DNA of 64,000 nt from Thermoplasmata archaeon (GTDB lineage Archaea > Thermoplasmatota > Thermoplasmata > Methanomassiliicoccales > Methanomethylophilaceae), in assembly GCA_015063285.1 (NCBI GenBank), contig SUST01000001.1:186001-250000 (forward strand), read 5' to 3'. Below, piece by piece: positions 57,091 through 57,834 of the stretch. Below the pieces are notes generated by a model. The model saw only the letters and a program-made list of their open reading frames with translations. It made no database searches and had not been told where the DNA came from. Numbering within the stretch: position 1 is the first letter of the stretch; every line of letters begins with the position of its first letter. The position numbers and the translations under genes were made by a program.

Positions 57091-57834
57091 ATGATCTGCT
57101 ACTTCTCCGCAACAGGCAACAGCAAGTACGTTGCCCAGAGGATATCATCGGCGATCGGAGAGGATTCCGCCTCGATAGAAGGACTGGACCCTTCTACACT
57201 ATCTGGAGAAAAGATCTTCGGTCTGGTCACCCCTGTGTACTATTGGGCCCTGCCGAAGATAGTTTCGAGATTCCTGGAGCAGGTCAAACTGAACGATCCC
57301 GAATACGTTTTCCTGGTGATCACCTACGGGACCACCACCGGCGCCTGCCGCGCCAACGCTGCAAAGATCCTATCCAAGAACGGAGTGAAGATCGATGCTG
57401 CATTCGACATAAGGATGCCCGACACCTGGACGCCGATGTTCGACCTCAGCGACCCCCAGTTCGTGGCGGAATAGAACCATGACGCGGAGGCGTACATCGA
57501 CAGGGTCATCATGAGGGTGCAGGAGCAAGCCAAGGGCAACTACATCGAGAAGGAGAAACCGAGCATAACGAGCATGGTTTCGAACACCATGTTCGACAGA
57601 GACAGACGTACGAAGAACTTCTTCCTCGATGACGGATGCACCGGCTGCGGCCTATGTGCCAGCAGATGTCCGGCTCAGGCCATCGAGATAAAGGATGGCA
57701 AACCCGTTTGGGTGAAGGAACAGTGCGAACTTTGCCTGAGATGCCTGCACCACTGCCCCCAGTTCGCCATCCAATACGGTGATGGAAAAACGAGGGAGCA
57801 CGGTCAGTACAGGAACCCTTACGTCAAGGTATAA
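57091..57834 (+). CDS. EFR1-type flavodoxin-ferredoxin protein with in-frame TAG
   Basis: A 247-residue frame to TAA, with TAG at 57472-57474 (residue 128). Part one is flavodoxin-like: CYFSATGNSKYVA is the FMN loop and VTPVYYWALPKIV its ring-binding loop. After the TAG, an alpha-helical linker (NHDAEAYIDRVIMRVQEQ) leads to two [4Fe-4S] motifs, CTGCGLCASRCP and CELCLRCLHHCP. This flavodoxin-plus-ferredoxin order is that of EFR1 proteins (about 250-260 residues), so the TAG splits one gene. Read-through, for example as pyrrolysine, would restore it. If the TAG is a true stop, the ferredoxin part may restart at the ATG at 57511. It lies divergent from the MFS gene. Confidence 0.8.

Follow-up and report, generated by a model that had tools for sequence, protein, structure and literature searches.

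An in-frame TAG codon in an EFR1 flavodoxin–ferredoxin gene of a gut methanogen is very likely decoded as pyrrolysine

Introduction

The window analysed here is a stretch of 64,000 nucleotides. Near its end lies a gene for a flavodoxin–ferredoxin protein whose reading frame is interrupted by a single TAG codon. The question is whether this codon terminates translation, and so divides the gene into a flavodoxin and a ferredoxin, or is read as pyrrolysine (Pyl) within one polypeptide. In Ca. M. alvus, 16 proteins other than the methyltransferases are predicted to contain Pyl, and TAG accounts for 1.6% of its stops (Borrel et al. 2014, PMC4153887). In-frame amber codons are given for 46 genes of ISO4-H5 (PMC5011839) and for 25 genes of ISO4-G1 (PMC4824259). 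Where amber codons are decoded efficiently, it has been argued, a newly arisen one persists in its gene as a stable change (PMC4153887).

A literature search for EFR1 proteins in connection with Pyl found no report. Archaea that read all TAG codons as Pyl have reportedly been described in a recent paper. Here, we compare the gene with its relatives and with the use of TAG in its own genome, and conclude that UAG at codon 128 is very likely decoded as Pyl.

Results

The gene encodes an EFR1-family protein

The open reading frame (57091-57834) comprises 247 residues if TAG is read, with its end at TAA (57832-57834) and a single in-frame TAG at 57472-57474 (codon 128). Its features are as follows.

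57091..57834, plus strand: EFR1-family flavodoxin–2[4Fe-4S] ferredoxin gene (NF038196, 235.7 bits, cut-off 75)
57091..57522, plus strand: flavodoxin domain, residues 1-144, including the TAG-bearing helix 122-144 (PF12724 at residues 1-126 and AlphaFold2 model)
57472..57474, plus strand: in-frame TAG at codon 128, where a pyrrolysine is predicted inside helix α5 of the flavodoxin domain (aligned TAG in L006; AlphaFold2 helix 122-144)
57637..57756, plus strand: two [4Fe-4S] cysteine motifs, C183-C193 and C212-C222 (Pfam and alignment)

The read-through protein matches the whole of the NCBIfam model NF038196 (EFR1; positions 1-242 of 242), far above the curated cut-off of 75 bits, as the initial annotation had proposed from the sequence. 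Each piece alone matches a complementary part of the same model: the piece before TAG scores 115.7 bits (model 1-122) and the piece from 57511 scores 100.5 bits (model 149-242). One family model thus covers both halves. Pfam identifies the flavodoxin domain and 4Fe-4S matches. The eight cluster cysteines (C183, C186, C189, C193, C212, C215, C218, and C222) form two CxxCxxCxxxCP motifs and are invariant across 13 aligned proteins, bearing out the claim that the downstream sequence continues in frame with intact cluster motifs. A fold search matched flavodoxins and proteins containing a flavodoxin domain (best 2fox, E 9.5e-5) and nothing more specific, and a sequence search of solved structures returned mainly ferredoxin-type matches. 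The protein is predicted to carry an FMN-type flavodoxin and two [4Fe-4S] clusters, and probably has a redox function.

The gene stands alone, flanked by two minus-strand open reading frames of 505 and 504 codons. A promoter and terminator scan gave nothing above shuffled sequences.

The TAG codon lies within a predicted helix

The initial annotation placed the TAG codon in the linker between the domains. We modelled the protein with AlphaFold2 from 13 sequences (mean pLDDT 77.5). Strands and helices follow one another in the model as they do in flavodoxins, and the last flavodoxin helix (residues 122-144) comes after the fifth strand. Block means of pLDDT are 79 for residues 121-130, 94 for residues 131-140, and 97 for residues 141-150. 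By this model, residue 128 is inside the last flavodoxin helix, α5, and not in a linker. Confidence is low in the [4Fe-4S] part (residues 161-247, with block means of 48-79), and domain contacts were therefore not read from the model.

A foldable short form needs a domain boundary at the stop, and the predicted structure has the codon within the helix instead. A product that ended at TAG, with 127 residues, would be missing 17 of the 23 residues that make up helix 122-144. Therefore, a useful flavodoxin-only form is unlikely on the predicted structure, and the main attraction of the idea that one mRNA yields both a flavodoxin and the fusion, as first suggested, is removed.

A diverged relative has TAG at the same codon

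At E 1e-30 or better, 45 of 102 genomes of the same family match the EFR1 protein. The best match besides the window's own is in G062 (locus L006; 59% identical, one TAG), followed by G054 (SIG9, locus L007; 58% identical, no in-frame stop). A related-locus search gave 14 loci, which include these two archaeal loci and Lachnospiraceae. In an alignment of 26 rows (L021 and L022 duplicate L006 and L007), the TAG of L006 falls exactly on the TAG codon of the window. L006 comes from a second species of the same genus, in a different neighbourhood. The alignment of orthologues had been named beforehand as a check, and it favours Pyl. The aligned codon is Gln CAA in L007 and Gln CAG in three Lachnospiraceae (L008-L010), and the remaining relatives have Lys, Ile, Arg, Leu, Met, Val or Thr. 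The TAG codon is thus aligned with sense codons of homologues, and the reading frame is kept on both sides. Since CAG is one change from TAG, the Lachnospiraceae codon suggests how the amber codon arose.

A family model applied to the 102 genomes recovers 76 EFR1 genes in 62 genomes. In-frame stops occur in 3 of the 76, and all are TAG, with no TAA or TGA. Within the genus, a more distant EFR1 gene (L051:2588-3310, G064:C152) carries its TAG at another site, codon 100. When 147 genomes of the order were searched with a stricter threshold (E 1e-45), 17 matches were obtained, of which 2 have TAG. The own genome also contains an EFR1 paralogue without an amber codon (G000:C3).

The window and L006 have identical codons at 8 of 67 columns of about equal variability, and the common TAG is therefore modest evidence when taken alone. 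In a tree of 24 proteins, the window's protein, L006, and L007 are grouped (support 95/94), and their next relatives are Lachnospiraceae, in a six-row group with support of 100/99. Within the archaeal group, the window's protein pairs weakly with L007 (85/51), and the two TAG genes are not grouped. Given this weak pairing, TAG may have had a single origin, two origins, or one gain and one loss.

Both halves are under purifying selection

Between the window and L006, pN is 0.293 and pS is 0.63 over the 127 codons before TAG, and pN is 0.25 and pS is 0.62 over the 119 codons after it. By this comparison, both halves of the gene are under similar purifying selection. The downstream half contains a candidate start codon for a separately made ferredoxin.

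57511..57513, plus strand: ATG at codon 141, where translation of a separate ferredoxin might restart (L006 has no start codon at this position of the alignment)

In the stretch from TAG to this first possible restart (codons 129-140), 7 of 12 residues are identical between the window and L006, and the differences at codon positions 1/2/3 number 2/4/8. Over the wider stretch 129-158, 13 of 30 residues are kept (pN 0.41, pS 0.86), indicating from the sequences compared that this stretch is constrained, but less so than the rest of the gene. From TAG to the first cluster, L006 has no ATG or GTG, and the sole candidate start is TTG at codon 160. Selection after TAG and the lack of a start common to both species indicate that the downstream half is kept as protein while a shared restart site is lacking. 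RNA folding downstream of TAG gave z scores of -0.99 and 0.02 in the two species, with nothing unusual and nothing common to both.

The genome has Pyl genes and hardly uses TAG as a stop

In the own genome, the 3' part of pylS lies at a contig edge and is followed by pylB, pylC, and pylD (G000:C13:1-3291). The last three names were assigned from sequence and gene order, which we take to follow the known operon. The pylS gene is cut by the contig end (positions 1-255, locus L001), and the remaining end of PylS is 96% identical to that of G062 over 84 residues. The tRNA-Pyl (CUA) is absent from the assembly, although the same query matches in five of five pylS-bearing relatives: ARAGORN places tRNA-Pyl next to pylS in G054, G062, G064, and G016, and in G072 the match lies beside pylS. 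The absence is most simply explained by the contig break at pylS and is likely an assembly gap.

The genome contains two copies of mtmB, with one TAG each. In a survey of 13 mtmB rows, all 10 near-full-length copies have one TAG. The dimethylamine methyltransferase gene mtbB (PF09505) was not found in the whole genome, though mtmB is present twice.

Among 272 coding-scored open reading frames in 344 kb of the own genome, 241 end in TGA, 27 in TAA, and 4 in TAG. The TAG share is close to the value for Ca. M. alvus (1.6%, PMC4153887). One of the four TAG-ended frames is the EFR1 gene itself, and the other three have no Pfam match when read through. In the 64-kb window, 39 of 41 coding-scored frames end in TGA, one in TAA, and one in TAG, and the last two are the end and the in-frame codon of the EFR1 gene. 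That TAG is hardly used as a stop suggests that it is decoded efficiently.

We also scanned for coding scores that continue across stops. With the strictest setting, the scan accepts 11 TGA places and 1 TAG. The TGA places are taken to be neighbouring genes that share a frame by chance; because they pass too, the scan is not specific, and we rejected it as proof of readthrough.

The same sample of the genome yields further amber codons. A NADAR-domain protein (PF08719, 74.2 bits, residues 7-138; L068:1704-2132, plus strand, G000:C2) has an in-frame TAG at 1893, mid-domain. It is the sample's only other in-frame TAG with domain support and, by sequence, another candidate for Pyl. Two places in G000:C1 (L067:16552 and L064:13437) have an in-frame TAG between coding-like stretches without a Pfam match. 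The first appears by eye to be a Sel1-type repeat protein, a type that also occurs among the amber genes given for Ca. M. alvus (PMC4153887).

The gene is probably accessory

The three closest archaeal copies (the window's gene, L006, and L007) are in unrelated neighbourhoods, and synteny as a proof of orthology was rejected. They are 57-59% identical in EFR1, versus 81-96% for the pyl genes of the same genomes. Six genes of L050, comprising pyl and neighbouring his genes, are 78-90% identical to those of G062, and three pyl genes are 81-90% identical to those of G054; among the reciprocal best hits of this comparison there are also pairs with 29-61% identity, and some of these are probably not orthologous. 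Together with the Lachnospiraceae as next relatives, the neighbourhoods and identities suggest that EFR1 is accessory and has been exchanged in the gut. The initial annotation reasoned that a redox protein is not a mobile gene and is therefore less likely to be decaying. The selection data and the TAG of L006 agree that the gene is not decaying, whereas the unrelated neighbourhoods, the low identity, and the Lachnospiraceae as next relatives speak against its being immobile.

Discussion

Our data are best explained by decoding of UAG at codon 128 as Pyl to give one full-length protein, because the TAG is common to a diverged relative, selection acts on both sides of it, the genome has pyl genes, and TAG is avoided as a stop. 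Pyl was also the reading of the initial annotation. In the mechanism we propose, PylS would charge tRNA-Pyl(CUA) with pyrrolysine made by PylBCD, the charged tRNA would decode UAG at codon 128 of the standalone EFR1 gene, and ribosomes would yield one 247-residue protein with a flavodoxin and two [4Fe-4S] clusters. Pyl would be part of the last helix of the flavodoxin domain, where the position tolerates various residues, and probably replaces an ordinary one. The TAG most likely arose by a change of CAG, a Gln codon, to TAG and would be tolerated because UAG hardly serves as a stop in this genome. We infer that readthrough is near-complete and that the residue has a neutral role. It is improbable that two diverged methanogens actively maintain Pyl at this place in the helix, either for a role of its own (for example, of its side chain where flavodoxin and ferredoxin meet) or because the output of full-length EFR1 tracks the supply of pyrrolysine or methylamine.

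The gene could instead be split, with UAG ending a flavodoxin and translation restarting at ATG 57511, which lies 13 codons past TAG and opens a frame that scores 100.5 bits as EFR1 by itself. This is quite unlikely. The corresponding stretch of L006 offers nothing before the TTG at codon 160, the codons between TAG and the ATG keep most of their residues with changes mostly at third positions, and termination would cut a predicted helix. Partial readthrough, giving a 127-residue flavodoxin and the full fusion in a ratio set by pyrrolysine supply, is conceivable at any amber codon, and it is somewhat unusual for two species to retain TAG where the site varies (at comparable columns, 8 of 67 codons are identical). 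However, the short product would be an incomplete flavodoxin, the two species have neither an RNA structure nor a restart codon in common, the close relative L007 has Gln CAA, the genome carries an amber-free paralogue, and the rarity of TAG stops points to efficient decoding. We consider such leakage, and with it the control by pyrrolysine supply put forward initially, very unlikely.

Gene decay with a nonsense mutation, or an error in sequencing, has to be considered for a contig of a metagenome-assembled genome (MAG), all the more with a paralogue in the same genome. The same TAG in an independent MAG (L006) argues against a base-call error, the downstream half is under purifying selection with its cysteines intact, and the in-frame stops among the 76 EFR1 genes are all TAG. 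Decay or error is thus largely refuted and the least credible of these explanations.

Decoding as Pyl would place the gene among known systems. In MtmB, Pyl is catalytic. The EFR1 gene has the same codon and the same machinery in the same genome, but MtmB has TAG in all near-full-length copies, whereas the EFR1 site varies and relatives manage with other residues. Within its own family the protein is typical in its full-length match, flavodoxin, and two [4Fe-4S] motifs, and unusual in its TAG, which just 3 of 76 members in 102 genomes have in frame. It resembles the non-methyltransferase Pyl proteins predicted for Ca. M. alvus, ISO4-H5, and ISO4-G1: an amber codon in an ordinary gene with amber-free homologues, a pyl operon, and very few TAG stops. 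Table 7 of PMC4153887 differs in listing no flavodoxin or EFR1 protein. The same paper names an amber-bearing 'putative Fe-S binding protein' of Ca. M. intestinalis (AGY50215), which may or may not be EFR1.

The EFR1 gene is one more case of the published pattern of predicted Pyl in many non-methyltransferase proteins of the order. It would bring an electron carrier into the set of pyrrolysine proteins predicted for gut methanogens, and two diverged EFR1 copies have their amber codon at one and the same site. Standard-code annotation would split such a gene into two pieces, and for gene calling in this genus the finding favours handling UAG chiefly as a sense codon.
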